Part shown: positions 8,198 through 59,484 of the stretch, one piece after another
Layout: the number at the start of each line of letters is the position of its first letter
Numbering within the stretch: the stretch's first letter is position 1
From: Lachnospiraceae bacterium
GTDB lineage: Bacteria; Bacillota; Clostridia; Lachnospirales; Lachnospiraceae
Assembly (NCBI GenBank): GCA_016287095.1
Contig: JAEEVK010000008.1
Coordinates: forward strand, 1-64,000
DNA: 64,000 bases
Direction: 5' to 3'
Notes under the pieces: model-generated
Databases searched by the model: none
The model's input: the letters and a program-made list of their open reading frames with translations, nothing else
Told to the model about the DNA's origin: nothing
Program-made: the position numbers and the translations under genes

Positions 8198-8791
8198 ATG
8201 AACATAATAACAGAATCATGCAGAGGCCTTGAGTTCAAGGGTGCTGCAGACATTATGATGACCTCACGCCAGTTGTTCTTTTCTGGCGAGGTTAATTCCG
8301 AGAACGTGAGCGCTCTCCTAATAGACCTAATTGCACTTAATCTCGAGAATCCAGATGAAGAGATTACACTGTATATCAATTCAAATGGCGGCTCTGTAAA
8401 AGACGGACTAGCCGTATATGACTATTTAAGGCATATGAAGGCTCCATTGAGGACCATATGTATTGGGTCGTGCGCTAGTATGGGGAGTATAATCTTTCTC
8501 GCTGGCGATACCAGGGAAATAACTCCGAATAGTACTGTAATGCTTCATGACCCGAGCTATGGAGCTTCAGACATAGGCGGGAAGAAGCCCCATGAGATAC
8601 AGAAGCAGGTAGATTCCCTTATGCAAACAAGGGAAGTGCTGGCTAGTATAATCTCGGAGCGCACAGGACGGCCTCTTGAAGAGGTTTACGAGATTACAAA
8701 GGATGATTCCTATTTCAGTTCAAAAGAGGCTGTGTCATTTGGTCTTGCAACCAATATTATTATAACAACAAGAAAGGAAAATGAATTATGA
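8198..8791 (+). CDS. clpP: ClpP-type serine protease, mobile-element copy
   Basis: 197 residues, the normal ClpP length. The catalytic triad is visible: Ser94 in GSCASMGS, His117 in MLHDPSYG, and an Asp in the KDDSYFSSKEA segment (169/170). NSNGGSV is the oxyanion-hole region. ClpP forms a barrel that degrades proteins fed by a Clp ATPase; none is encoded here, so it would use host ClpX/ClpA-type partners or act alone. It overlaps the VirD4-type gene by ATGA, so the two are translationally coupled. Such ClpP copies are known as cargo of conjugative elements and phages. A good AAAGGAAG site precedes the ATG. Confidence 0.88.
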   Translation: MNIITESCRGLEFKGAADIMMTSRQLFFSGEVNSENVSALLIDLIALNLENPDEEITLYINSNGGSVKDGLAVYDYLRHMKAPLRTICIGSCASMGSIIFLAGDTREITPNSTVMLHDPSYGASDIGGKKPHEIQKQVDSLMQTREVLASIISERTGRPLEEVYEITKDDSYFSSKEAVSFGLATNIIITTRKENEL

Positions 8792-10543
8792 GAAATTTCA
8801 ATAATATTAATAATTTTAATAACAATGCACCTTATAGATTTCTTGGTGAAGGCAACAAGGTTTCTGAAGATAGCTGCCTGACCAAGCTCAATAATAATGA
8901 CCTTATTATAGGTGGGTCTGGCTCGGGTAAGACCACAGGATATGTAAGTCCTCTTCTTAACAATCTCTGTGGTTCCTCGCTAGTCGTTCAGGATACTAAG
9001 GGAAGGCTGTGCCGTACCTATAGTAAGATTTTGAAGACCAGAGGATTTATGGTATATACCCTCGACTTCTGCAATCCAAGCCAGAGCAGTATAGGCTATA
9101 ACCCTCTGGCTGCCATACGAAGGCATCCTGACGGTTCAGTGGTAGAGCAGGATGTAAATAAGCTGGCTGCCCTGTTGGCACCTCTTTCCGATACCATACT
9201 GGGAGCAGTCTGCACAGAGGCTTCTCAGTGTGGAGATTGGTTATTGCCTGGAAGCGCTTGTCAAGTCTGAACAGAATATGAAGTCTGTCTTGAGAATAAA
9301 CCGTGAGATGAATTCTGAAAGCGGTTTCAAGAGCATTGAAAAGTGGGCTCATAAATATCCTGAAAGCTATACCGCTAAAAGATATCAACTGATAAAGGGA
9401 TTGCCACAGTCAGAACGAACTTGGGCTTGTGTTCAGGATTTCCTGAATAGGTACCTTGCAAGTCTTGATGTCAAGGAGTTTGATTCTATTTTTGTGGCTA
9501 ACACAATGTTAGATTTGAAAGCCATAGGTAAGGAGCCTACAGTTCTTTTCCTTAATGTACCTGACCACGATAGCTCATGCAGCAACGTTGTTGATGCATT
9601 CAATGCTCAGTTAATCCAGGTCCTTATTGATACAGCTGATAAGGAGAAGTCAGGAAGGCTCCCTCTTAAGGTTCGAATAGTATTTGATGATTTTGCAGCA
9701 TCCGCTTCGAGAATGCCTGATTTCGAAAAAGTCATTTCAGTCATCCGCTCACGCGATATCTCTGTGAGTATCGTTCTTCAGGCTCTCAGCCAGTTGGAGG
9801 CATCATATGGCAAGCCAGATGCAAGAACTATCATCTCTAACTGTGACCACTGGCTTTTCCTAGGGACTAGGGAACTAGAAACTGCTGAGTTTATAGGAGC
9901 CATGATTAACAAGACAGCAACAGCTGTTCTGAACCTTCCATCAGATAAGGCAATCCTTATAACTTCGGGGCATCCGTATCAGGAAGTTAATAAGATAAGG
10001 CCTGACTCCGAATGCAATGTTATTGATGATAAGGCATTGAGATATAAAGAATCTGAGAGGGCACTAAGGCAATCTGGCAGAGGTGTGTACCAATACTGGG
10101 AAGCGTGCTTCAACATCGATAGCCAGGCTGGTCACATTCCTGTGGTGCGTACGAATGAATATATGCGTGAGCTTGTTTCCAAGAGTCCGTTTGTAGTGAG
10201 GCTGTTACCAGGAGAGAAAGAATCTGGAAAGCCTTGTATTAAGATAATGGATGGAGACATCTTACTTGGACTTGTCCAGGAAGAGTACTATGTATCCAGG
10301 CTTCAAGGTCTTGGAGAGGCTGTTGTCTATGTGGATGACCATGCACAGACGAACCGTTACAGTGGGTATATATACAAGGCGCAGGAGCCCTCACAGAAGC
10401 AGTATCATATGGTGAAGAATGCCTATGACAATGGGCTTATAGATGCTTTGCCAGAGAAATACGAGAGGCATATTTATAGCAAGCTAATAGCTCAGATTAT
10501 GGCTATAAAGGCTGAGACGTCGGCAGTGCCGCAATCAGAATAA
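8788..10543 (+). pseudogene. VirD4/TraG-type conjugative coupling protein, frameshifted
   Basis: Two overlapping frames encode one protein. The first (to 9270) has Walker A GGSGSGKTT (residues 42-50) and DTKGRLCR. The second continues from about 9200 with WEQSAQRLL and GYCLEALV, then FLNVPDHD, VFDDFAASA (Walker B region) and LFLGTRELETAEFIG, all expected of VirD4-type ATPases that pump DNA into the conjugation channel. The junction is near GATACCATACTGGG, where removing one C (or restoring two bases) joins the frames. The N-terminal membrane segments of classical VirD4 are absent. Probably inactive unless the shift is a sequencing error. Confidence 0.8.
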
Positions 10544-10785: not shown

Positions 10786-11730
10786 ATGGAACGTAAAATG
10801 ACATGGACCGAGGAAAAAATAAAAGATAAATTAGCTTATTTTTTCCCTGATATAAAAGAGCCTAAAGAAAATCAGTTGTATTATATAAAGGCTATCCTTG
10901 AAGGGAAGGACATCCTTGCGGTTATGCCTACCGGATCAGGGAAAAGTCTCTGTTATCAATTTTCAGGACTGATCATACCCGGTGTAACAGTTGTGATACA
11001 GCCTATCGTAGCTCTTGTTCATGACCAGGCAAAAAAACTTCAAGAAAAAAACATCCCTGCTATATGTATTGATAACATAGAAAAAGAGGAAGAAACAAAG
11101 GATGTAAAATTTGCTGTTTCCCGGAATAAGGCATATAGGGAATGTTCGGAAGGAAAATATAAATTTATCTTTGTAACACCGGAAAGATTCAGGTCACCAC
11201 ATTTTATCAATCTGCTTAACCATATGGAGGTCAATCTGATAGTTTTCGATGAGGCTCATTGTCTTTCGTTGTGGGGACACGATTTTAGAAAGAGCTATCT
11301 TGATGCAATAAGAGTGTTGAGAATGCTGCGCGGAAGGAAAAAAGAAGGACGATTACAGGTTGCAGCATTTACAGCCACAGCAACGACCGATGTCAAGATA
11401 GATATAATAAAGCTTCTCTCGGAATCGAAAGCGAAAAAAGAAATAGAAACACTGATAAAAAACACAAAGGATAACGAGGATATAATTGCTCGGTACTGTT
11501 CACAGGTAATCCTAAAAGATCTAAATTTCGTGGTAAGAGCTGGTGAGGAAGATCCTATAAATTCAAACCTCTACTTCGTGCATCATATATTGAATAGTAA
11601 GGATGTTGACAGACAAAATGAACGTTTCAATAATAGAAGAGACTTTGAATATGTTCGACAGTGGGATTATAAAAGGGAAACAGTCCTTAAAATAATAGAT
11701 GATGAAATCAGACGTTATAAGCCAGCATAA
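10786..11730 (+). CDS. RecQ-type helicase N-terminal half (cut off by in-frame TAA)
   Basis: 314 residues containing the first RecA-like domain of a RecQ-family DNA helicase. There is a Gln before the first strand (Q-motif region), Walker A MPTGSGKSLCYQ (47-58), motif Ia IQPIVALVHDQ, the RecQ-type box FDEAHCLSLWGHDFR (154-168) and motif III FTATAT (195-200). The frame stops at a single TAA and the same frame continues without a shift for another 3.8 kb with helicase motifs IV-VI, so this is the front part of one ~1580-residue protein. Read alone it lacks the second RecA domain and should not unwind DNA. An AT-rich leader with a separate promoter precedes it. Confidence 0.8.
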   Translation: MERKMTWTEEKIKDKLAYFFPDIKEPKENQLYYIKAILEGKDILAVMPTGSGKSLCYQFSGLIIPGVTVVIQPIVALVHDQAKKLQEKNIPAICIDNIEKEEETKDVKFAVSRNKAYRECSEGKYKFIFVTPERFRSPHFINLLNHMEVNLIVFDEAHCLSLWGHDFRKSYLDAIRVLRMLRGRKKEGRLQVAAFTATATTDVKIDIIKLLSESKAKKEIETLIKNTKDNEDIIARYCSQVILKDLNFVVRAGEEDPINSNLYFVHHILNSKDVDRQNERFNNRRDFEYVRQWDYKRETVLKIIDDEIRRYKPA

Positions 11731-14700
11731 AGGAATAAATACAAAGACCTTTATAGTGACTGGAATAAAGAAGTAAGAAATTTGGAGTCTGAAGACAGTT
11801 CTGATAATGAGGAGGGGAGAAAAAAAGAAAAGTTTGAGAAATGGCTAAAAAATAATGATCGTTATCCAAAGAATTATCCCTGTGGAATAATATTCTGTGA
11901 AACAATAGCCGGAGTAGATAAAGTAGCTAAAGAACTTACCCATGAATTCCAAGGTAAAAATATTAAAATTGCGAAATACTACGGACCTATGGATAAGCAT
12001 ACTAAGCATGAAAATTCTGAAAAATTTGTTAGTTCCGAAGCCGTGATTATGGTTTCTACAAATGCATATGGAATGGGCATCGATAAAAATGACATACGTT
12101 TCATAATTCATTACAATATTCCTCGTTGTATAGAGAATTATGTTCAGGAATGTGGACGTGCCGGCCGTAACAAATCATTTAAAGGATATTGTCATTTAAT
12201 ATATTCTGAAAGAGAAGTAAAATATCCTCCGGTTGAGGAATATACAGCAGAAGGAGGAATAAAAGGTACAAGCTATATACATGATTATATAAAATTTAAA
12301 CGAATGTGCGATAATGCACTTATAATCGGTGATAAAAATATACATGATGACCTTAAAAGTTATTTTATGGAACCACCGAAAATAAATTCTACATGTATGA
12401 AGCTTGAATATGCCATGCAGGAACGTGAACTTTCATTTCCACCGGTGCTGTATTCAAACAGTTGCTTAGCAGCAGGGAGGATTCGCAAAGGACAGTTCAA
12501 TAAGTTGTCGGGTTCACTGAAGATTTCCGGTTCCTTGAACAAGACCAATTATCGCCCTGCTGGGGAAGTCATTGATGATCTTATCAGTTCCCAGGATTTG
12601 TCAATTACAGAGTTGGCAGAGAAACTTAATTTGAGCATAAAGGCTATAAAAATGTATTCTGGGGAAGGGAGGTACCATAATAATACTAATTACCCAAAAC
12701 TAGAGGCCAGAATTAAAAAAACATTTAAGATTCCCCGTAATTTCCTTAATACAAATGCGCAGGTTTCTTCTGATGAGACTTCTTCTGATGAAGGGGCACT
12801 TTTATCATCCACGGTGACGTACATGGACCTGAAAACAAATGAGGACAATACGGATGATGGAGAGAACTATATCACTGTAGATTTATCCTATAATGGACTA
12901 CCTTATTCTGAGGCAAAAGAGGAGGATCGACTGTCATATTTTGACATGATGGTCATGGATGCAGTTTACACGCTTGAAATGTATGACATGCCGATATCTA
13001 TTCAAAATATATATAAACTACTCAGTGGGGATCTTGATATTTCGGTATATATTTCAAAAGCTCATGCACATACTAGACATTCTGATAAGGTAAAAATTGT
13101 TAAAGACAGTTTCCGTAAGATGATTAATACGGGGATAAGTATAAATTTTGCTTTATCTCATGCTCAAGGAATATATTATGGAAAGAATAATAGACCGGAT
13201 TCTTTCTCTGGTGTATTTCTTCCTATTGAAATGGATCCCTATTCGAAACATGCATTTAGACCAAAGCAGAGCACTATAGACGTGTTTGTGCCTATAGGGT
13301 GTAAGAAAAACGAAATAACTGGTAAATTCCAGACTGTTGTAACAAAAGTTTCCAAAAAGGTTATATGTAGACCGCCTCTTTGCGAGCTTGCGGATATGCT
13401 ATTGCAATATCATACTTTCCCTTTAGATGTTCTAAATCTAAAAGGAAAAGATTGGAATTATAAGAAAATATGGAACTGGGGAGAAAATGTTCCCAAAGAA
13501 TATCGTAATATAGTTGATAGCGGTATTACAGGGTATGAGAATGCATTGGCAGATGAATGTGACAAATATAAAATAAGTAAGCAGATAATAGAATACTATA
13601 GGAAGAAATTGCAGATAAGAAGTTCTACTGAACAAAACTTTGTTGAGGATAGTTTTCCTCAACATTCCATAGAAAACATGATCCTTGCTCATTTTTTGTT
13701 GAATAGGATAGCAATCTTACCAACAAAATACAGATACTATAAGAACAGAAGAAGTATTTCACCATATATACAGTTTTATCCAAAGGATAATGCTTCTAAG
13801 TGTATATTAGAGTATTTGTTCCGTGGGATAGGAGAATACTCTGAGCATTCATGTGGAATGAGTTATAAGGATAAAGAGAATGATCCATATTTTTTAAGAA
13901 AATGGCAGACTATTCTTTGTGAAAAATATCCATTATATAAGGAATTAGGAAAAGCATTCTTAGATCCCAGATATTCTGACAAGAATATCGATAAAAAACT
14001 TCGACGTAAGTCTAGAGAAAGTTACGAAGAATGGAAGAAACGTGCTGACAGATATGATGAGAAATTTGGTACCCAAGATCCTCGTTTTTATGATGAAAGC
14101 CCTGATAATCCATTAGGACATTTACCGGGAGAAGAATATAAAGAATGGAAAATAAGAGTCAATAAGGATTACAAGGTAAAAAAGAAGGCAAATGAAAAAG
14201 ATGGAACTTTAAGTATCATAATGAAAAAGATTGCAGAGTGTATTCCTTTGCAATATCAGTTCATCAATAATCAGATGCTTTATATCGAAAAAAAGCCAAG
14301 TAAGCACTTGAAGAAATGTTATCCGATTATGTTTGTGAACACCATAAAAGTGGCTGTACGAGGAGATAATATAGGAGATACAGGGATTCGTGTGATTAAT
14401 ATGATTCTAGGGTATGATGTATATGGTACCAAGGAGATCATAGGTGTTTGGAACGGTAAGGAAGGAAATATTTCTGGGGAAGAATATTGGAAGGGAATAT
14501 TCAATAACATAAGATCTAGAGGAGTTGAATCAGTATTGTTTGTTCTTAGCCCAGCATATCCTCACAATAATCCTTATGATATAAATAAGCTCAGAAAAGC
14601 AGTAAAAGCAGTTTTTGGGGGTAAGACAGGCGTGGATGAAGATAATAGCCATGAGAATAATAAGGCTGATATATCTTTTAAAAGAATAGCTGATATTGCT

Positions 14701-15525
14701 TCATTGAAGAAGGACTTTGATTGGCTGGTCAATCGTACACTGTATTATATAAAGGAAGAATACTCAGATGAATTCACAAAAAGAGCTACTAGTTTATCCT
14801 GTAGTGGTTTGTTTAAAAACCTAACTGGGATAGATATTAGCATGGAAATTAAAAAGACACTGGATAATAATAACGATATATTGAAATTTGGTTATGACAT
14901 GAACAGGACTCTTTTGGAATTCCAGAAAAAATTTTCAAACGAAAAGGATTATCATAAAATAGAAGAATATAAGAAGTGCAAAGAAGAGGTGGTCAGATAT
15001 ATTGATGAAGTTTCTATAACTTCAAATAAGATAAAAGATTATTCAAGAAAAATATTTTTAGCTGTTAATGCGGAGAAAGTGTACCAGAACTTTATTAATT
15101 CCTTATCTAACTATCCTGAAAATCTGAAAGAAAAAGTATATGGAATATGGCATGAAAAATGGGGTATGATATATTCAGGCCTTTTAAAGAAGGAAGGTGC
15201 TATACGTCAGCTGACAGAGTTCGTAGATTTTAGCCAAATAATCGAAAAACGAAGGTTTCCTAGTACGGAATCAGCTAAATATGCACTTATGGCCAGATGT
15301 GAAACCATGAACGAATCGTGGCAAGATGCTGCTAGTAAGCAAAATCATAACCCATATCCTGAATCCTGGGAGGATATAATAAACGATGAAACCCTAGATT
15401 ATACGTGGAGACATCTGCTTAACAATCTTAATAATGTAGATACAGGACTAAATTTAAATAAAGGGGAACTAAAGCAGGCTCAGGATGTTATCCTGAGATA
15501 TTATAGAACAACTAAAAAAATGTAA
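11731..15525 (+). CDS. RecQ-type helicase C-terminal half fused to IS256/Mutator transposase-like domain
   Basis: In-frame continuation after the TAA; the first possible restart is TTG at 11782, which has no good ribosome site. Residues counted from that TTG: helicase motif IV GIIFCETIAG (35-44), V STNAYGMGIDK (92-102), VI YVQECGRAGRN (120-130). A helix-turn-helix-like stretch (SITELAEKLNLSIKAIKMY) follows near 274-292. About residues 845-940 read like the IS256/Transposase_mut core: YPIMFVNTIKVAV, IIGVWNGKEG, YWKGIFNNIRSRGVESV, KAVKAVFGG; the family's C-terminal FPS-ESA...W segment matches KRRFPSTESAKYALM near 1155. The family's first Asp (FLD) is Asn here (FVN), and the second (VDG or SDG) is missing, so the fold is probably a binding domain without transposase activity. 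The 17-repeat array starts about 50 bp after the stop. Confidence 0.75.
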   Translation, partial: RNKYKDLYSDWNKEVRNLESEDSSDNEEGRKKEKFEKWLKNNDRYPKNYPCGIIFCETIAGVDKVAKELTHEFQGKNIKIAKYYGPMDKHTKHENSEKFVSSEAVIMVSTNAYGMGIDKNDIRFIIHYNIPRCIENYVQECGRAGRNKSFKGYCHLIYSEREVKYPPVEEYTAEGGIKGTSYIHDYIKFKRMCDNALIIGDKNIHDDLKSYFMEPPKINSTCMKLEYAMQERELSFPPVLYSNSCLAAGRIRKGQFNKLSGSLKISGSLNKTNYRPAGEVIDDLISSQDLSITELAEKLNLSIKAIKMYSGEGRYHNNTNYPKLEARIKKTFKIPRNFLNTNAQVSSDETSSDEGALLSSTVTYMDLKTNEDNTDDGENYITVDLSYNGLPYSEAKEEDRLSYFDMMVMDAVYTLEMYDMPISIQNIYKLLSGDLDISVYISKAHAHTRHSDKVKIVKDSFRKMINTGISINFALSHAQGIYYGKNNRPDSFSGVFLPIEMDPYSKHAFRPKQSTIDVFVPIGCKKNEITGKFQTVVTKVSKKVICRPPLCELADMLLQYHTFPLDVLNLKGKDWNYKKIWNWGENVPKEYRNIVDSGITGYENALADECDKYKISKQIIEYYRKKLQIRSSTEQNFVEDSFPQHSIENMILAHFLLNRIAILPTKYRYYKNRRSISPYIQFYPKDNASKCILEYLFRGIGEYSEHSCGMSYKDKENDPYFLRKWQTILCEKYPLYKELGKAFLDPRYSDKNIDKKLRRKSRESYEEWKKRADRYDEKFGTQDPRFYDESPDNPLGHLPGEEYKEWKIRVNKDYKVKKKANEKDGTLSIIMKKIAECIPLQYQFINNQMLYIEKKPSKHLKKCYPIMFVNTIKVAVRGDNIGDTGIRVINMILGYDVYGTKEIIGVWNGKEGNISGEEYWKGIFNNIRSRGVESVLFVLSPAYPHNNPYDINKLRKAVKAVFGGKTGVDEDNSHENNKADISFKRIADIASLKKDFDWLVNRTLYYIKEEYSDEFTKRATSLSCSGLFKNLTGIDISMEIKKTLDNNNDILKFGYDMNRTLLEFQKKFSNEKDYHKIEEYKKCKEEVVRYIDEVSITSNKIKDYSRKIFLAVNAEKVYQNFINSLSNYPENLKEKVYGIWHEKWGMIYSGLLKKEGAIRQLTEFVDFSQIIEKRRFPSTESAKYALMARCETMNESWQDAASKQNHNPYPESWEDIINDETLDYTWRHLLNNLNNVDTGLNLNKGELKQAQDVILRYYRTTKKM

Positions 15526-15577
15526 AGCAAGGTAGTTATACATCTGAGAAATGTAAGATAATATTTGAATTAAACGG

Positions 15578-16194
15578 AAAAGCGTACATATTGAAGTTGG
15601 TATAAGGAGTGCTTGCGTTTCAAAGTGTACGCTTTTAGGAAAAAACTCAAAAAGCGCACAAGTTGAAGCAGTATTTTTGATATTTGAGCTCAATCTGTAC
15701 GCTTTTTGATGTTACAACTCTGAAAAAACGTACAGATTGAAGTATGATTATTAAGTTTATGTTTCAGATCGTACGTAATTTAAGTTTTAAATCACAAAAA
15801 ACGTATGAATTGAAGTGAACTTCCTGGATTTTCAGTTCAGATTGTACGTTTTTTGGTTAGGCAGTCACAAAAAACGTACAGAATGAAGTGTATTTATCTT
15901 GCTCTTAGCATCAAAACGTACGTATATATACCCAAAATCATCTGAAAAACGTACGGAATGAAGTTGCATATTTGAAGTTTAAGTTCAGATTGTACGTTTT
16001 TGGAGTTGAAATGATAGAAAAATGGATAGAAACGTACAATTTGAAATAAAGATCATGAAACGTATGATTCAGAGCGTACGCAATTAGTTTCAAAGCCACA
16101 TAAAAAGCGTACAAAATGAAGTGGCATACTTGAAGTTTTGGTTCAGATCGTACGTTTTTTGACCTGGTAATTGGAAAAGCGCACTGATTGAAAT
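15578..16194. repeat. Array of 17 alternating inverted repeats with unique spacers
   Basis: The motif AAAARCGTACNNNNTGAA occurs nine times forward (starts 15578, 15649, 15723, 15796, 15869, 15945, 16028, 16102, 16175) and eight times reversed (starts 15618, 15689, 15762, 15836, 15911, 15984, 16068, 16142), strictly alternating. Forward copies usually extend to TGAAGT and reverse copies to TGAAC. Spacers between a forward and the next reverse copy are 18-21 bp; those from reverse to forward are 12-16 bp, with one of 26. Forward starts are 71-76 bp apart (one is 83). Spacer sequences mostly differ, while lengths stay constant. In RNA each forward-reverse pair would form a stem of about 10-12 bp. 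There is no open frame and no cas gene. It is not a CRISPR array: repeats alternate in direction. Alternatives are iterons, an operator cluster, or a guide-like RNA locus. Confidence 0.9.
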
Positions 16195-16281
16195 ATGAAC
16201 TGGTTATTATGAATTAACGTCTTATTATAATACTATAATAATATAATACTAAATTTCTTTTTGCTGACTTAAAATGATGAT

Positions 16282-16327
16282 AAGCCGTCGCACGCGTATG
16301 ACTTTAGTGTGAGTTAGGCGTTTTTTT
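16282..16327 (+). terminator. Possible terminator downstream of the array
   Basis: A GCC-rich/GGCG stem with internal loop (GCAC/GTGT inner pairs) is followed by seven T. It could end transcripts from the helicase gene through the array. The stem is imperfect. Between the array and the next gene (16195-16475) nothing else coding is visible; it is very AT-rich. Confidence 0.35.
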
Positions 16328-16475
16328 ATGCAAAATCTTGAAGAAATGGAAAATATAGTGTAAAATATTTCTGAAGAAACGGTATTTTATATGCTGGTGT
16401 ATATTTTCATTATATGGATACATCCAACGTGTTTAATAAAGATTTTACTATATAATATGTAGAAAGAGGTTTAAA

Positions 16476-17171
16476 ATGATAAACGCAGTTCTTACGATTG
16501 ATGATGTTTCTTCGGCCAATACTCCGGCAATAGTGGACTATCTGAATTCCAAGGGGATAACTGCCCTTATGTTTGCTGTGGGTGAAAACGTTGAGAAATA
16601 CTATGATAACGCTATATATGCACTTAAAAAGGGTATGATCCTCGGAAACCACAGCTATTCGCATCCGGCATTCTCCAGACTTTCTCTTGAAGAGGGGGTA
16701 GAAAATATCGAGAAAAATGAGGCGGTCCTGGATAAGCTGTATAAGGATGCGGATGTTGAGAGAAAATACAGACCTTTCCGTTTTCCTTATGGTGATAAGG
16801 GAGGACAAAACAAGGATGCTCTTCAGGCCTACTTAAGGGACAAGAAATTCAGCAAACTGAAAGATACGCAGCTTACGTATGAATGGTGGGGAAAACGTGG
16901 CTTGGACAAGGATATTGATACATTTTGGACATTCGATTTTGCAGAGTATAACATCCGTCCGGGCTCGGAGTTTACAGAAAAAGACGTATGGAAGAGGATA
17001 GAGGATCTCGATCCGCCTTATGGTGCAGCTTTGCTGAAGGATGGCAACAGTCATTTCATACTTCTTCATGCGCATGACGAGACGGAGGAGCTTGTACCGG
17101 AGTATTATAAGAAGTTTATTGACTTCCTGCTCGAAAAAGGTGTGGTATTTAACAAACCGGAGTTTATCTGA
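16476..17171 (+). CDS. Polysaccharide deacetylase (NodB/CE4 family)
   Basis: 231 residues with the CE4 motifs in order: LTIDD (metal Asp, the usual TFDD), GNHSYSHPAF (the two metal-binding His), FRFPYGD (arginine/proline motif 3) and HFILLHAHD near the end (motif 5 His). There is no signal peptide, which is unusual for an enzyme that acts on peptidoglycan or acetylated xylan, so it is either cytoplasmic or acts on small oligosaccharides. Good AGAAAGAGG site before the ATG. It is the first ordinary chromosomal gene right of the mobile island. Confidence 0.85.
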   Translation: MINAVLTIDDVSSANTPAIVDYLNSKGITALMFAVGENVEKYYDNAIYALKKGMILGNHSYSHPAFSRLSLEEGVENIEKNEAVLDKLYKDADVERKYRPFRFPYGDKGGQNKDALQAYLRDKKFSKLKDTQLTYEWWGKRGLDKDIDTFWTFDFAEYNIRPGSEFTEKDVWKRIEDLDPPYGAALLKDGNSHFILLHAHDETEELVPEYYKKFIDFLLEKGVVFNKPEFI

Positions 17172-18197: not shown

Positions 18198-19418
18198 ATG
18201 AGAGCTTATGAACGTTTATTAAAATATGTAGTAATTCATACAACGAGTGATGATAATTCAGAGACGGTTCCTTCTACTAAAAGGCAGTTTGATCTTGCAA
18301 ATGCGCTTGTAGAGGAAATGAAAAATCTTGGTATTACCGATGCGGCTGTTGATCAGCATGCGTATGTGACAGGACATATCCCTGCGACCCCCGGATATGA
18401 GAATGCTCCGAAAATCGGTTTTATTGCACATCTGGATACGGCTCCGGACAGTTCAGGTGAAAATGTTAAGCCATGTGTACACGAAAATTATGATGGTAAC
18501 GACATAGAAATTGGGAATGGAAAGATACTTTCCACCGCACTTTTCCCTCATCTTAAAAATTTAAAAGGAAGGACTCTGATTACGACGGATGGTTCTACCC
18601 TGCTGGGAGCCGATGATAAAGCGGGCATAGCAGAGATTATGACTATGGCCGAATCTGTTATAAAGGACTCTGTTCCGCATGGAGCTATCTCACTTGCATT
18701 CACACCTGATGAGGAGATAGGTCATGGTGCGGAGTTGCTGGATATAGACGCTTTTGGAGCAGACTTTGCATATACCGTGGATGGCGGTGCGGAAAATGAG
18801 ATAGAGTACGAGAATTTTAATGCTGCAAAGGCTGTATTTAAGATAAACGGAATCAGCGTGCATCCGGGCGATGCAAAGAACCGTATGGTAAACGCAGCGC
18901 TTCTTGCATGCGAGATAGCATCTATGCTCCCGTCTGCCGAAACCCCTGCACATACGGAGAAAAGAGAAGGCTTCTATCATCTTACGGATATCAGCGGAGA
19001 TGTGGAACATGCGGAAATATCGTATATAGTCAGGGATCATGACCAAAGTCTGTATGAGGCAAAAATAAAAACTCTGCGACTGATAGAGAAGACTTTGAAT
19101 GAGCGTTACGCTCCCGGAACCGTAGTACTGACGGTTACGGAACAATATAAAAATATGATAGATAAGATACGTCCTCACATGCATATAGTGGAGACCGCAA
19201 AGCGATGCATTGTGGAACAGGGAATGACACCTTTGGAAATCCCTGTGCGTGGAGGAACAGACGGTGCGCAGCTTTCGTTCAGAGGCTTGCCTTGTCCTAA
19301 TCTCGGGCTAGGCGGCTATGGTTATCATGGTCCTTTTGAGCATATAACTGCTGAAGGTATGGATAAGGTTGTAAATATACTCTGCGGCATAGTGAAGTCT
19401 TATGCTGAGAATAAATAA
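18198..19418 (+). CDS. pepT: Peptidase T (tripeptide aminopeptidase, M20B)
   Basis: 406 residues, the usual PepT length. M20 metal-binding motifs are intact: IAHLDTAPD (His, Asp), TLLGADDKAGIAE (bridging Asp), FTPDEEIGHGAE (general base Glu and metal Glu), YTVDGG (Asp) and a C-terminal YGYHGPFEH (His). The enzyme releases the N-terminal residue from tripeptides in the cytoplasm, using two zinc ions. VRGGTDGAQLSF is a further PepT signature. A CAGGAG site lies at good distance from the ATG. Confidence 0.95.
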   Translation: MRAYERLLKYVVIHTTSDDNSETVPSTKRQFDLANALVEEMKNLGITDAAVDQHAYVTGHIPATPGYENAPKIGFIAHLDTAPDSSGENVKPCVHENYDGNDIEIGNGKILSTALFPHLKNLKGRTLITTDGSTLLGADDKAGIAEIMTMAESVIKDSVPHGAISLAFTPDEEIGHGAELLDIDAFGADFAYTVDGGAENEIEYENFNAAKAVFKINGISVHPGDAKNRMVNAALLACEIASMLPSAETPAHTEKREGFYHLTDISGDVEHAEISYIVRDHDQSLYEAKIKTLRLIEKTLNERYAPGTVVLTVTEQYKNMIDKIRPHMHIVETAKRCIVEQGMTPLEIPVRGGTDGAQLSFRGLPCPNLGLGGYGYHGPFEHITAEGMDKVVNILCGIVKSYAENK

Positions 19419-20082: not shown

Positions 20083-22296
20083 ATGAAAGAGAATAGTAAG
20101 AAGTTTACAAATGTTAAAAAACTGTTGGTAATATTTTCTCTGATAATCTGTTTTACAGTATCATGCAAAGGGAAAGAGGAAAACAATAATACACCCAGCC
20201 CGACTGTTGATTTACAGCTACAGGAAAATATAGGAGACTCGTCAGTGACTCCTGTGTCGGATAACAATGATACATCACCAGAAAAAACAGAAATCAGTAA
20301 ACAAGAACCAGAAGAAGATCAGAATACAGAGGATGTTAAAGAAGAATCTGTCAATAAAGACCTTTATGCTGAGCCTTGGATTAACAGTGACTTAAAAGAA
20401 AATTTTACTAAAAATATGAAGTTATCCCCAAAGGAAGACTTCCATCTTTATGCAAATTATGAATGGCTGAAAAACGCTGAGATACCTGCCGGATATTCTG
20501 GTTGGAATTTTTTTGATGAAGTTTATAAATGTGTTATAGAAAAAGAAATTGCTTTAATCACTGATGAAAATGTAGACAATCATGAGGTTGAACTGATAAA
20601 GGATTTTTATAATGCAATACTTGACTGGGATGAACGAAACGAAACTGGACTAACTCCTATGACTCAGTTAATTGACGAAATCCGGGCCATTCAGTCACTC
20701 GATGAGTTTACGGATTTTATTTGCAATAAAGATAAAAGGAATTTTTCAAGATTTGTAAATGTAATGATAGAGCCTGCGATATCTGATTCATCAAAATATA
20801 TAGTGGCTATCCGACTCAATTTTCATATAACTCTTGGCGGCGAACAAGTGATATCTATACAAAGACGTCAGGAAACTGCTGAAAAGGTTTTTGTTTCCGA
20901 GTTAATGAATCTTGCTGGTTATGACAGAATTGAAGCGGTTCAAATGTATGAAGCTGATACTTATAGGGTTGAGCCATATTTTTATCAGAATATATTTTAT
21001 CAAGAAGATTTCGGTAGTCCAAAATTCTATGCAGAAAATAATATTATAATGACAAATGATGAAATAAAGAGTTTGACTAAAGCGTTTCCATTGATGGGTA
21101 TACTTGAGTATTATGGGGTTGCTGATGCAGAAGAATATCAGGTTTTTTATCCTAAGGCTTTCGATAATTTGGATAATTTCTATATAGAAAATAACCTTGA
21201 ATCTCTAAAAAAATATCTTATTGTTACTTGTGTAATGCAAATGGGTCCCCATTTGAATCAGGATGCTGATAAACTTTTAAATGATTATAAGGAATCGTTA
21301 TATGGGACATCAGAGGTTGCATCTGATGAGGAGTACGCATTGGAAAGTGTTGTAAGTTATTTGAATACACCATTTTATAAAGCATATCTCCAGAAATACG
21401 ATGCAACCGAGATCAAAGAACGTATTACAAAACTGGTTGAACAGATCATAGATGAATATAGATTGATGCTTTCGGAAGAGGATTGGTTATCAGAGGCTAC
21501 TAAAAAATTTGCAATAGAGAAACTCGATAACCTTAAGATTAATGTCATATGTCCGGAAACTTGGGATGATTTTTCAAATATGAACTTAAAAGGACTTTCT
21601 TATTTGGAGGCAAGGCGAAAGATAATCGATTATCAATGGCAGCTTATGATTGCGAAAATTGGTGAGACATGTAGACGCGATGAATGGAGAAATATTAAGC
21701 TTACTACTAATGCCTATTATGATTCCTTATATAATAGTATAAATATCAATTACGGAATTGTTGATGGAGAATTTTACTATGATGGTATATCCGATGAGGA
21801 GCTATATGCAGGATTAGGTACTATCATCGGTCACGAGATTTCACATGCGTTTGATTCAAATGGAGCTTTGTATGATAAAAATGGGGATTATGTGAACTGG
21901 TGGACAGAGGAAGATTATAAGTCTTTCGAAGAAAAGACAGATAAGCTTATCAAATATTATAATAATATAACAGTATGGTTAAATGGATATGTTAATGGAA
22001 ACAGAGTTTGTGGAGAAGCGATTGCGGATATAGCAGGTATGAAGGTTATTCTTAAAATGGCTGAGAAAATACCTGATTTTAATTACGAGGAGTTTTTTAC
22101 AGCCTATGCAAAATCATGGCGCAGCATTACGACTGAAGAATACGAACAGTATCTTTTTGCCATGGATACACATCTGTTAGCCTATCTCAGGACGAATACC
22201 GTAGTTCAGCAGTTTGAGAAGTTCTTTGAGACTTTTGGTGTTAAGGAAGGTGACACTATGTATCTGTCGCCTAAGAAGAGGGTAAGCATTTGGTGA
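20083..22296 (+). CDS. M13 (PepO/neprilysin) family metallopeptidase lipoprotein, copy 1
   Basis: 737 residues. The lipobox is FTVSC (Cys28), followed by an acidic, low-complexity linker, so the protein is anchored outside the membrane. The M13 N-terminal domain starts near DFHLYANYEWLKN. The zinc site is HEISH (584-588) with the third ligand Glu645 in GEAIADIAGM; WWTEEDY precedes it. NAYYDSLYNSININYGI is the substrate-binding segment. M13 enzymes cleave short peptides at hydrophobic residues. The usual C-terminal CxxW is replaced by a VSIW end, common in bacterial forms that lack disulfides. Start ATG joins the previous stop and uses CGGAGG inside the upstream gene. Confidence 0.88.
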   Translation: MKENSKKFTNVKKLLVIFSLIICFTVSCKGKEENNNTPSPTVDLQLQENIGDSSVTPVSDNNDTSPEKTEISKQEPEEDQNTEDVKEESVNKDLYAEPWINSDLKENFTKNMKLSPKEDFHLYANYEWLKNAEIPAGYSGWNFFDEVYKCVIEKEIALITDENVDNHEVELIKDFYNAILDWDERNETGLTPMTQLIDEIRAIQSLDEFTDFICNKDKRNFSRFVNVMIEPAISDSSKYIVAIRLNFHITLGGEQVISIQRRQETAEKVFVSELMNLAGYDRIEAVQMYEADTYRVEPYFYQNIFYQEDFGSPKFYAENNIIMTNDEIKSLTKAFPLMGILEYYGVADAEEYQVFYPKAFDNLDNFYIENNLESLKKYLIVTCVMQMGPHLNQDADKLLNDYKESLYGTSEVASDEEYALESVVSYLNTPFYKAYLQKYDATEIKERITKLVEQIIDEYRLMLSEEDWLSEATKKFAIEKLDNLKINVICPETWDDFSNMNLKGLSYLEARRKIIDYQWQLMIAKIGETCRRDEWRNIKLTTNAYYDSLYNSININYGIVDGEFYYDGISDEELYAGLGTIIGHEISHAFDSNGALYDKNGDYVNWWTEEDYKSFEEKTDKLIKYYNNITVWLNGYVNGNRVCGEAIADIAGMKVILKMAEKIPDFNYEEFFTAYAKSWRSITTEEYEQYLFAMDTHLLAYLRTNTVVQQFEKFFETFGVKEGDTMYLSPKKRVSIW

Positions 22297-22324
22297 TGAA
22301 ATATCGGAATGATGGAGTGTTAAG

Positions 22325-24535
22325 ATGACTGAGAAAAGAAAAGCATTTGGAAAAGTATCGTTATTATTGGTAATATTCTCTTTAATAATCTGTTTTACTG
22401 TATCATGCAAAGGAAAAGAGGAAAACAATAATACACCTACCCCGACTGCTGATATACAAATACAGGAAAAGGTAGAACAACCGTCAGCGACACCTGTGCC
22501 GGATAACAATGATACATCACAAGAAATAAAAGAAATCAGTGAACAAGAACCAGAAGAAGATCAGGACACAGAGGATGTTGAAGAAGAGCCGGTTAATAAA
22601 GATCTTCATGCTGAGCCTTGGATTAACAGTGACTTAAAAGAAAACATTACTAAAAATATGGAGCTATCCCCAAAGGAAGACTTCCATCTTTATGTAAATT
22701 ATGATTGGCTGAAAAACGCAGAGATACCTGCCGGATATAGATTCTGGTCTTTTACGAGTGAAGTTAATAAAACTGTTGAAGACAAAGAAAAGGCATTGAT
22801 TACCGATGAAAATATGGAAGGCCATGATGTTGAACTGATAAGGGATTATTATAATGCTATACTTGACTGGGATGAACGAAATAAAACCGGACTAACTCCG
22901 ATGATTCAGTTGATTGATGAGATACAGGCAATTCAGTCACTCGAAGAGTTGACTAAGTTTATTTGTGACAAAGATATAGGGAATTGTTTTTCTAGGTTTA
23001 TCAATGTAAATATAGAACCTGCTGTGTCAGACTCATCTAGATATATAGTGGCTATCAGAATTAATAATCATATAGGTCCTGAAGGTGAGACTTCAAAACC
23101 TTCAGGACGACAGCAAACATCAGAGAAAAAATTTGTTTCAGAATTAATGAAGCTCGCAGGCTATGACAGGGCTGAAGCGGCTCAAATGTATGACGCAGTC
23201 GTTTCTAGAATTGAGCCATTTTTTTATTATGAACAAATCCGAGAGGTTAAAAGGGGGTTAAGTCCCTATGAAGGAAATGTTGTTATTATGTCTAGTGATG
23301 AAATAAAGAGCTTGACTAAAGAATTTCCTTTGATGCGTGTCCTTGATTATTATGGGGTTGCGGATGCCGAACAATACGAGGTTTTTAATACTGATATTAT
23401 TAAAAATCTGGATAGGATTTACACGGAAAGTGATCTTGCTTATCTAAAAAGGTATCTGATAGTAACCTGTGTAATGAAAATGGGTCCCCATTTAAATCAG
23501 GATGCCGATAAACTATTTGATGATTATTATAAATCATTATATGGAATATCAGAAGTTGCATCAGATGAAGATTTTGCATTAAGAACTGTAGTAATAAGTT
23601 TGGGTACACCATTTTATAAGGCATATCTTCAGAAATATCATGCAACCAAGACCCAAGAACATGTTAAGAAACTGATTAAACAGATCATAGATGAATACAG
23701 GTTGATGCTTTCGGAAGAGGATTGGCTTTCAGAGAGTACAAAAAAATATGCTATAGAGAAACTTGATAATATTAATATTGGTGCAGTATATCCGCCAGTT
23801 TGGGATGATTTCTCAGACTTGGATATAAAAGGTCTTTCTTATCTGGATGCTATACAAAAGATAAACGATTATAAATGGCAGGTTGCTCTTGCTAAAATTG
23901 GCAGGACATGCAGTCATACAGAATGGAGAAATCTTTATCTTACTACAAATGCATTTTATGATCCATTATATAACAGCATTATAATTAATTACGGAATAGT
24001 TGATGGGGATTTTTACTATGATGGTATATCCGATGAGGAGCTATATGCAGGATTAGGTACTATCATCGGTCACGAGATTTCACATGCATTTGATACTAGC
24101 GGTGCTTTATTTGATAAAAACGGAGATTATGTGAACTGGTGGACTGAGGAAGATTATTCGACTTTCGAGCTAAAGACTGATGAGCTTATCAAATATTTGA
24201 GTAATATAACAGTATGGTTAAATGGAAATGTTAACGGGAAAATGGTGTGTGGTGAAACTATTGCTGATATAGCAGGTATGAAGGTTATCCTAAAAATGGC
24301 CGAGAAAATACCGGATTTTAATTATGAGGAGTTTTTTACAGCCTATGCAAAAAGGTGGCGTAGCATTATGTCTGAAGAATCCGAACAGTATTATTTTGCC
24401 ACGGATACACATCTGTTAGATTATCTCAGAACGAATATTGTAGTTCAGCAGTTTGAAGAGTTTTATGAGACTTATGATGTTAAGAAAGGCGATACTATGT
24501 ATCTGTCTCCGAAGAAGAGGATAAACATTTGGTAG
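22325..24535 (+). CDS. M13 (PepO/neprilysin) family metallopeptidase lipoprotein, copy 2
   Basis: 736 residues, a tandem paralogue of the previous gene with the same lipobox (FTVSC, Cys28), linker, HEISH zinc site and GETIADIAGM third ligand. The two differ at many positions in the N-terminal domain, so substrate range may differ, but a 77-bp stretch around the zinc site is identical in DNA (21772 and 24011 onward). It follows copy 1 by 28 nt and is probably cotranscribed. Extracellular peptide degradation is inferred from family and lipoprotein signal. Confidence 0.88.
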   Translation: MTEKRKAFGKVSLLLVIFSLIICFTVSCKGKEENNNTPTPTADIQIQEKVEQPSATPVPDNNDTSQEIKEISEQEPEEDQDTEDVEEEPVNKDLHAEPWINSDLKENITKNMELSPKEDFHLYVNYDWLKNAEIPAGYRFWSFTSEVNKTVEDKEKALITDENMEGHDVELIRDYYNAILDWDERNKTGLTPMIQLIDEIQAIQSLEELTKFICDKDIGNCFSRFINVNIEPAVSDSSRYIVAIRINNHIGPEGETSKPSGRQQTSEKKFVSELMKLAGYDRAEAAQMYDAVVSRIEPFFYYEQIREVKRGLSPYEGNVVIMSSDEIKSLTKEFPLMRVLDYYGVADAEQYEVFNTDIIKNLDRIYTESDLAYLKRYLIVTCVMKMGPHLNQDADKLFDDYYKSLYGISEVASDEDFALRTVVISLGTPFYKAYLQKYHATKTQEHVKKLIKQIIDEYRLMLSEEDWLSESTKKYAIEKLDNINIGAVYPPVWDDFSDLDIKGLSYLDAIQKINDYKWQVALAKIGRTCSHTEWRNLYLTTNAFYDPLYNSIIINYGIVDGDFYYDGISDEELYAGLGTIIGHEISHAFDTSGALFDKNGDYVNWWTEEDYSTFELKTDELIKYLSNITVWLNGNVNGKMVCGETIADIAGMKVILKMAEKIPDFNYEEFFTAYAKRWRSIMSEESEQYYFATDTHLLDYLRTNIVVQQFEEFYETYDVKKGDTMYLSPKKRINIW

Positions 24536-58767: not shown

Positions 58768-59484
58768 ATGGCCTTTGATTATAAGAAGGAATATAAAGAG
58801 TTTTACATGCCGAAAAATAAGCCAAGTATTGTAACGGTGCCGAGCATGAATTATATCGCCGTGCGTGGAACCGGGAATCCGAATCAGGAGGATGGAGAAT
58901 ACAAGCAGTCTATCGGATTACTATACGGAATTGCTTTTACCGTCAAGATGAGCAAAAAGGGTGACCATCGTATTGAGGGTTATTTCGATTATGTGGTACC
59001 ACCACTGGAAGGGTTCTGGTGGCAGGGAGCCGCCTCGGTGAAGCCGAATTCCAATGCGGCGACCGACATGCCGTCGACCGAAGGTCGGGGGCACTTCCAA
59101 CAGGAAGGCGTTAAGGGGATTGATTATAACCGTAAGGAAGATTTTAACTGGATATCGGTGATCAGGCTTCCTGATTTTGTGACAAAAGCTGATTTTGACT
59201 GGGCTGTGGGAGTGGCTACTACGAAGAAAAAAACGGATTTTTCGAAGGTGGAGTTCCTGACTTATGATGAAGGAATATGTGTCCAGTGTATGCATATAGG
59301 TTCATATGATGATGAGCCTGCTACGGTTGCTATGATGCATGCGTTTATGGATCAACAGGGTTATGAGCTGGATATTACAGATAAGCGGCTACATCATGAG
59401 ATATATCTCAGCGATGCCAGAAAGGTTGATCCTGAGAAACTAAAAACTGTAATAAGGCATCCGATTAAGGTAAAGGGGAAATGA
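58768..59484 (+). CDS. GyrI-like small-molecule-binding protein
   Basis: 238 residues. SIVTVPSMNYIAVRGTGNP is the usual start of GyrI-like domain proteins; GYFDYVVPPLEGFWWQG and CVQCMHIGSYDDEPATVAMM, followed by HHEIYLSDARKVDPEKL, are the conserved strands. These domains bind or hydrolyse small electrophiles. It starts 4 nt after the Cys-rich gene and ends 4 nt before the radical-SAM gene, tightly packed in the operon. Confidence 0.82.
   Translation: MAFDYKKEYKEFYMPKNKPSIVTVPSMNYIAVRGTGNPNQEDGEYKQSIGLLYGIAFTVKMSKKGDHRIEGYFDYVVPPLEGFWWQGAASVKPNSNAATDMPSTEGRGHFQQEGVKGIDYNRKEDFNWISVIRLPDFVTKADFDWAVGVATTKKKTDFSKVEFLTYDEGICVQCMHIGSYDDEPATVAMMHAFMDQQGYELDITDKRLHHEIYLSDARKVDPEKLKTVIRHPIKVKGK

Follow-up and report, generated by a model that had tools for sequence, protein, structure and literature searches.

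Iterons at the origin of plasmid F and in its incC locus are direct repeats. In F, repeated binding sites for the initiator RepE lie near an AT-rich block, and incC, a second set of iterons, is a negative copy-control and incompatibility locus (PMC13028717, available in part). In Vibrio cholerae, the initiator RctB reads sites in ori2-inc and in a distant titration locus on chromosome 2, as well as crtS on the main chromosome, which triggers chromosome 2 replication and is described, in the available part of the source, as having no homology to the other RctB sites (PMC6090056). Here, we describe an array of alternating inverted sites in a 64,000-nucleotide stretch (hereafter, the window) of contig JAEEVK010000008.1 from a Lachnospiraceae bacterium (GenBank assembly GCA_016287095.1). 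On balance, we favour reading these sites as predicted iterons for a plasmid initiator of the RepE/pi (Rep_3) kind, in an array that would likely capture this initiator as an incompatibility or copy-control locus.

The titration and handcuffing proposed for the window array have counterparts in incC of F and in the RctB-titrating sites of V. cholerae (PMC13028717 and PMC6090056, both available in part), while crtS offers a parallel in that it lies on one chromosome and is read by another replicon's initiator (PMC6090056). There are also clear differences. The iterons of F stand beside repE, whereas the window sites strictly alternate and no rep gene is present. The ori2-inc and titration sites are carried by the replicon that their initiator replicates, whereas for the window array no initiator is identified, and alternating inverted pairs are not described for RctB sites in the available parts of the sources. 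Unlike crtS, the window array is built of iteron-like sites.

Anatomy of the array

A sequence-only reading of the window had noted 17 copies of one motif alternating between forward (F) and reverse (R) orientation, and this was confirmed. A scan for AAAARCGTACNNNNTGAA with up to two mismatches gave 18 matches in the window, 16 of them within 15578-16192, whereas shuffled sequence (n = 100) gave 1.19 on average and never more than 5; the 17th copy in the array, a reverse site at 15910-15927, has three mismatches. The order is F-R-F-R without exception, with nine F and eight R sites. The array and the block next to it comprise the following features:

15578..16192, no strand assigned: 17 half-sites AAAARCGTACNNNNTGAA forming an array of 8.5 inverted-pair units, from the pattern scan
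15578..15595, forward strand: first F site; the other F sites start at 15650, 15724, 15797, 15870, 15945, 16028, 16103 and 16175
15619..15636, reverse strand: first R site; the other R sites start at 15689, 15763, 15836, 15910 (weak), 15984, 16068 and 16142
16203..16262, no strand assigned: AT-rich block, 13% GC, containing TATAATAC repeats; candidate DNA unwinding element

Measured from start to start, each R site follows its F site after 39-41 bp and the next F site comes after another 31-35 bp, or 44 bp in one case; successive F sites are 72-75 bp apart, except for one pair at 83 bp (mean 74.6 bp). The two size classes of spacer and the single 26-bp R-F spacer reported earlier were recovered, but with an 18-bp site the F-R gaps are 21-23 bp, not 18-21 bp, and the R-F gaps 13-17 bp. 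Core-to-core steps fall near whole 10.5-bp turns, with a mean deviation of 0.074 turn in the window, 0.128 turn in a second array (L027, see below) and 0.25 turn at random, so that the window sites show the same-face spacing expected of a Rep_3 iteron array. The only long R-F gap in the window (core-to-core 41 bp, versus 28-32 bp) corresponds to about one extra helical turn. The AT-rich block, which starts ≈11 bp past the last site, is one of only 21 among all 60-bp segments of the 64 kb (itself included) with ≤13% GC (0.03%), and as a candidate unwinding element it would supply the adjacent AT-rich region of an active Rep_3 plasmid origin. The array is flanked by an interrupted helicase gene on one side and a polysaccharide deacetylase gene on the other.

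The spacers had been described as mostly of different sequence, which alignment did not bear out. The F-R loops (seven of eight; unit 5 was left out) could be aligned with each other with a mean score of 0.38, compared to -3.77 (SD 0.62) for shuffled loops (0/500), and the R-F spacers (seven of eight) more weakly, with -4.0 versus -5.8 (1/500). The five of eight loops that are exactly 21 nt long share 54% identity versus 32% expected, while identity is 90% in the fixed columns of the site and 38% in its NNNN columns. Because loops and spacers are homologous between units and the site columns are better conserved, the array looks, from these alignments, like an old tandem array of ≈74-bp units in which the sites were kept and the remainder drifted.

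The F and R arms of a unit are no more alike than arms paired at random (38 mismatches versus 36.7 expected), an argument against selection for a hairpin. Between R-F neighbours there are slightly fewer differences than in random pairings (33 versus 38.1, P = 0.019), a result on which we build no conclusion. When folded as RNA, five F-R units and one R-F unit gave z scores from -1.8 to -5.7, as is usual for inverted repeats, and a search of Rfam gave no match at the array.

A second array beside a Rep3_N gene

A scan for F-R pairs in genome contigs of 84,980 species, from which host-genome records were possibly excluded, gave two stretches, L027 and L026. The former, from a Lachnospiraceae metagenome-assembled genome (MAG) from water buffalo omasum, equals contig C70 of genome G010, a member of the host's own genus, in length and match positions. 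F-R pairs were present in two of the 24 genomes of this genus, the host and G010, which also had the most single sites with up to one mismatch (18 and 19, compared to 0-10 in the others and 0-7 for a reversed-pattern control). Of the host's 18 single sites, the array accounts for 14; contig C106 has two, and C99 and C107 have one apiece.

The motif that occurs in 17 copies in the window is arranged in L027 as 22-bp direct repeats plus inverted sites that occupy the gap between par and rep genes. This array lies directly downstream of an operon of parA and a small gene, directly precedes a Rep3_N gene and ends within 75 bp of the rep start. An adjacent rep gene, as expected of an active Rep_3 plasmid origin, is present in L027 and absent from the window. 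The small protein of the par operon had no match in Pfam or NCBIfam. The Rep model of C70 matches RepE, and as in plasmid F (PMC13028717, available in part), repeated sites, here predicted to bind Rep, lie near an AT-rich block. The window and L027 arrays align across a spacer with 78% identity over 60 bp (E = 1.5e-6), and the two loci share a syntenic anchor:

18198..19418, forward strand: pepT-like M20 peptidase gene, 85% identical to the pepT downstream of rep in contig C70 of G010

In both genomes, pepT lies downstream of the array (85% protein identity) and is followed in the same order by a second frame that is 75% identical. The lowest-GC 60-mer near the sites in C70 (4667-4726) has 11.7% GC (0.18%), and that near the pair of sites on host contig C106 (2012-2071) has 6.7% GC (0.02%). 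The GC skew of C70 changes from -0.094/-0.02 to +0.188/+0.23, with only 4.7 kb available on the left side.

Relatives of the C70 Rep make up 17 further protein clusters in public data (P0004-P0020, 68-88% identity). The initiators of the Butyrivibrio plasmids pNP243 and pCY186 are also related to it (25% and 23% identity); however, the three stretches around them (6.1-11 kb) contain no motif array, only single sites of 10-15 bits.

Neighbouring genes and scattered sites

The sequence-only reading had tied the array to a RecQ-transposase-like gene. Such a gene does adjoin the array, but it is interrupted, and we consider it to lie outside the mechanism:

10786..15525 (frames 10786-11730 and 11782-15525), forward strand: RecQ-like helicase gene, interrupted, with an IS256/Mutator-type domain in the second piece

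Compared to 5.8 billion proteins, residues 131-1247 of the second piece had no match beyond the protein they come from and a single distant helicase. A genus search with the helicase/IS256-domain protein gave helicase or transposase matches only separately, and no viral relative was found. Upstream, a TraG/VirD4-like coupling-protein gene (8788-10543) is apparently split into two overlapping frames, of which only the second (9230-10543) was run against Pfam; together with the neighbouring ClpP-like gene it is likely what is left of a conjugative element. At 20083-24535, two similar genes for M13-type peptidases lie side by side in an apparent tandem duplication (only the first was run against Pfam), and a GA-cis RNA (RF02987) was matched at 59021-59102 with 44.2 bits. 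The gene content (an AddA-like helicase-nuclease, RmuC and peptidases) and the uniform skew suggest that the contig is a chromosome-like replicon.

On host contig C106 (L009, 2012-2233), a single F-R pair was found 108 bp from one of the contig's most AT-rich 60-mers, with a conjugation-type frame on one side, at the end of the contig, and PolC-, IspG- and Dxr-like frames on the other (named by eye). L026, from an Alcaligenaceae MAG, has a single F-R pair at 552-609 with the 42-bp core-to-core distance of most window F-R pairs, and no rep-like frame was noticed in the 2.2 kb around it. Eleven loci with scattered single sites (nine chosen loci and two host contigs) contained no array. Two had a pair of strong sites in the same direction, 40 bp apart in L104 (G006:C7, 5101-5158) and 62 bp apart in L105 (G008:C153, 3406-3485), with no larger array.

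In a draw of 397 genomes of the family, which had two genomes of the genus (G000 and G022) and did not include G010, the host alone had F-R pairs. The Rep alignment matched 50 of 250 family genomes, mostly in C-terminal parts; among 30 loci read from these matches, four had one site of 12-17 bits each and none had an array. A Rep search of 392 genomes of the order found none at E = 1e-15, an empty result that is uninformative by itself. Distant blastn of plasmid records (to E = 10) gave 4 and 10 records for the two arrays, all short matches with E of at least 0.8 that we took as chance; no phage records carrying Rep were found; and searches of viral contigs with three DNA patterns and two protein sequences ended without a match or without a relative that could be confirmed. 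No description of the motif turned up among the papers listed for Butyrivibrio and Lachnospiraceae iterons or for pieces of the motif (for the pieces, 15 of 55 papers), in a search whose coverage left out most subscription journals. A 2011 paper in Plasmid reportedly deals with Butyrivibrio proteoclasticus episomes.

Proposed function and alternative explanations

Iterons or stacked operators had been listed in the sequence-only reading as an alternative, and this is the part that the evidence backs; overall, that reading was partly supported. We propose that Rep would bind each site as one monomer per 18-bp bipartite site, and that Rep on neighbouring sites of the same face would form a cooperative lattice. 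This lattice would titrate Rep and "handcuff" with the origin of a resident or incoming plasmid that has the cognate Rep. The near-whole-turn spacing of the sites fits a statement in a review that iterons no longer act cooperatively once displaced by half a turn (PMC4980987, available in part). For interplay of this kind, the SGI1 island, whose replication promotes loss of its helper plasmid (PMC7433901, available in part), is a precedent.

A number of observations weigh against this proposal. Whole turns are missed in the first unit of the window (4.19 and 2.67 turns) and by some steps in L027 (2.38 and 4.29), and phase coherence, 0.87 in the window, is a modest 0.45 in L027. The units are tandem copies, so their spacings are statistically non-independent, and since the conserved columns were picked as the consensus, part of the conservation contrast arises by construction. 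The search for AT-rich blocks was confined to the vicinity of the sites, and a high AT content is general in intergenic DNA. Only one other genome shows the motif paired with Rep. The Rep 39% identical to that of L027 in G002 has no site of 10 bits in ≈1 kb upstream. Rep3_N genes occur at six other loci in the genus, that of G002 included, and these loci (up to ≈1.5 kb per side) have no array and one single site of 13.8 bits. The pepT regions of six other genomes (eight loci) have no site of at least 13 bits; three of these genomes (G008, G016 and G017) have a pepT 84-93% identical with no sites beside it, and pepT alone is therefore no predictor of the array. The host assembly (85% complete) has no Rep3_N match, and the Rep alignment matched nothing in it but a C-terminal piece on contig C194 (E = 3.9e-11).

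Replication is unlikely to start from the window locus itself. The window, searched to E = 0.1 for rep, parA and the small par gene, has none of them, not even as remnants. We also found no DnaA box (up to one mismatch to TTATCCACA) in 15401-16480 or in the C70 and C106 stretches, and no switch in gene direction or GC skew at the array (+0.169 to the left, +0.207 to the right). Nor are there direct iterons in the strictly alternating window array; direct 22-bp steps occur only in L027. For these reasons, the locus is best called an orphan iteron array and not an origin.

The main rival to a Rep-capturing array is a silent relic: a plasmid or chromid would have merged with the contig and lost rep and par, leaving behind its origin region, which still looks iteron-like but is now inert. 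We regard this as a real, though lesser, possibility. It would account for the pepT gene after the array in both genomes, the lack of rep and par, the interrupted TraG-like and helicase genes nearby and the absence of a skew switch. However, the fixed site positions are better kept than the loops and NNNN columns, and the sole long R-F gap is offset by about one helical turn, as if under selection; this selection may predate the loss of rep. A partition centromere, in which the sites are bound not by Rep but by the small protein encoded after parA (type Ib-like), appears improbable. Centromeres are commonly repeat arrays, and the L027 array directly follows the parA operon, although only there, and not in the window, is such a gene next to the array. 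Short sites are the usual targets of small partition proteins. A two-winged-helix Rep agrees better with the 18-bp bipartite, asymmetric site, with the direct steps of 22 bp and with the extension of the array to within 75 bp of the start of rep.

There is very little to suggest that the neighbouring RecQ/IS256-domain protein uses the array, be it as binding sites or as ends. The gene adjoins the array and has a Transposase_mut match (5.1e-8), but it is interrupted and had no full-length relative in the searches, and the 8 kb around the only other array contain par- and rep-type genes and no gene of this kind; this link was dropped. Least probable of all is a transcribed hairpin or guide-like RNA array. 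The units do fold better than shuffled sequence, and the adjoining helicase piece matches PADLOC models of DpdF (1.1e-50) and one noted "poss. alt. Cas3" (1.8e-23), in the helicase core only. Cas-named Pfam matches among the frames submitted were limited to Cas4/DUF83 (a PD-(D/E)XK nuclease, 63-764) and a weak Cas3-like match (the helicase). A CRISPR or guide array has direct repeats and unrelated spacers; here, orientation alternates. The comparison with guide arrays was thus rejected on the homologous spacers, the arms without co-variation and the lack of an Rfam match. The array is likely a control region stranded from a plasmid, not a guide-RNA array of a new type.

We also consider, as a rather unlikely extension of the Rep-capturing array, that a lattice of phased alternating iterons on the main chromosome governs another replicon, sensing the Rep level of a chromid or plasmid and either timing its firing, as crtS does, or expelling incompatible plasmids, with the C106 pair as a further site. 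If true, this would be a plasmid-immunity locus built only from borrowed origin sites. A puzzling guide-like array has become a testable plasmid-control locus, and a candidate iteron sequence is now available for an initiator with 17 further protein clusters. Because chromids and megaplasmids are reported in genome papers on Butyrivibrio and Pseudobutyrivibrio (available in part), these relatives within the Lachnospiraceae are a fitting place for the question: if the orphan array still binds Rep, it would offer a simple way to ask whether chromosomes keep pieces of origins to control or repel plasmids.
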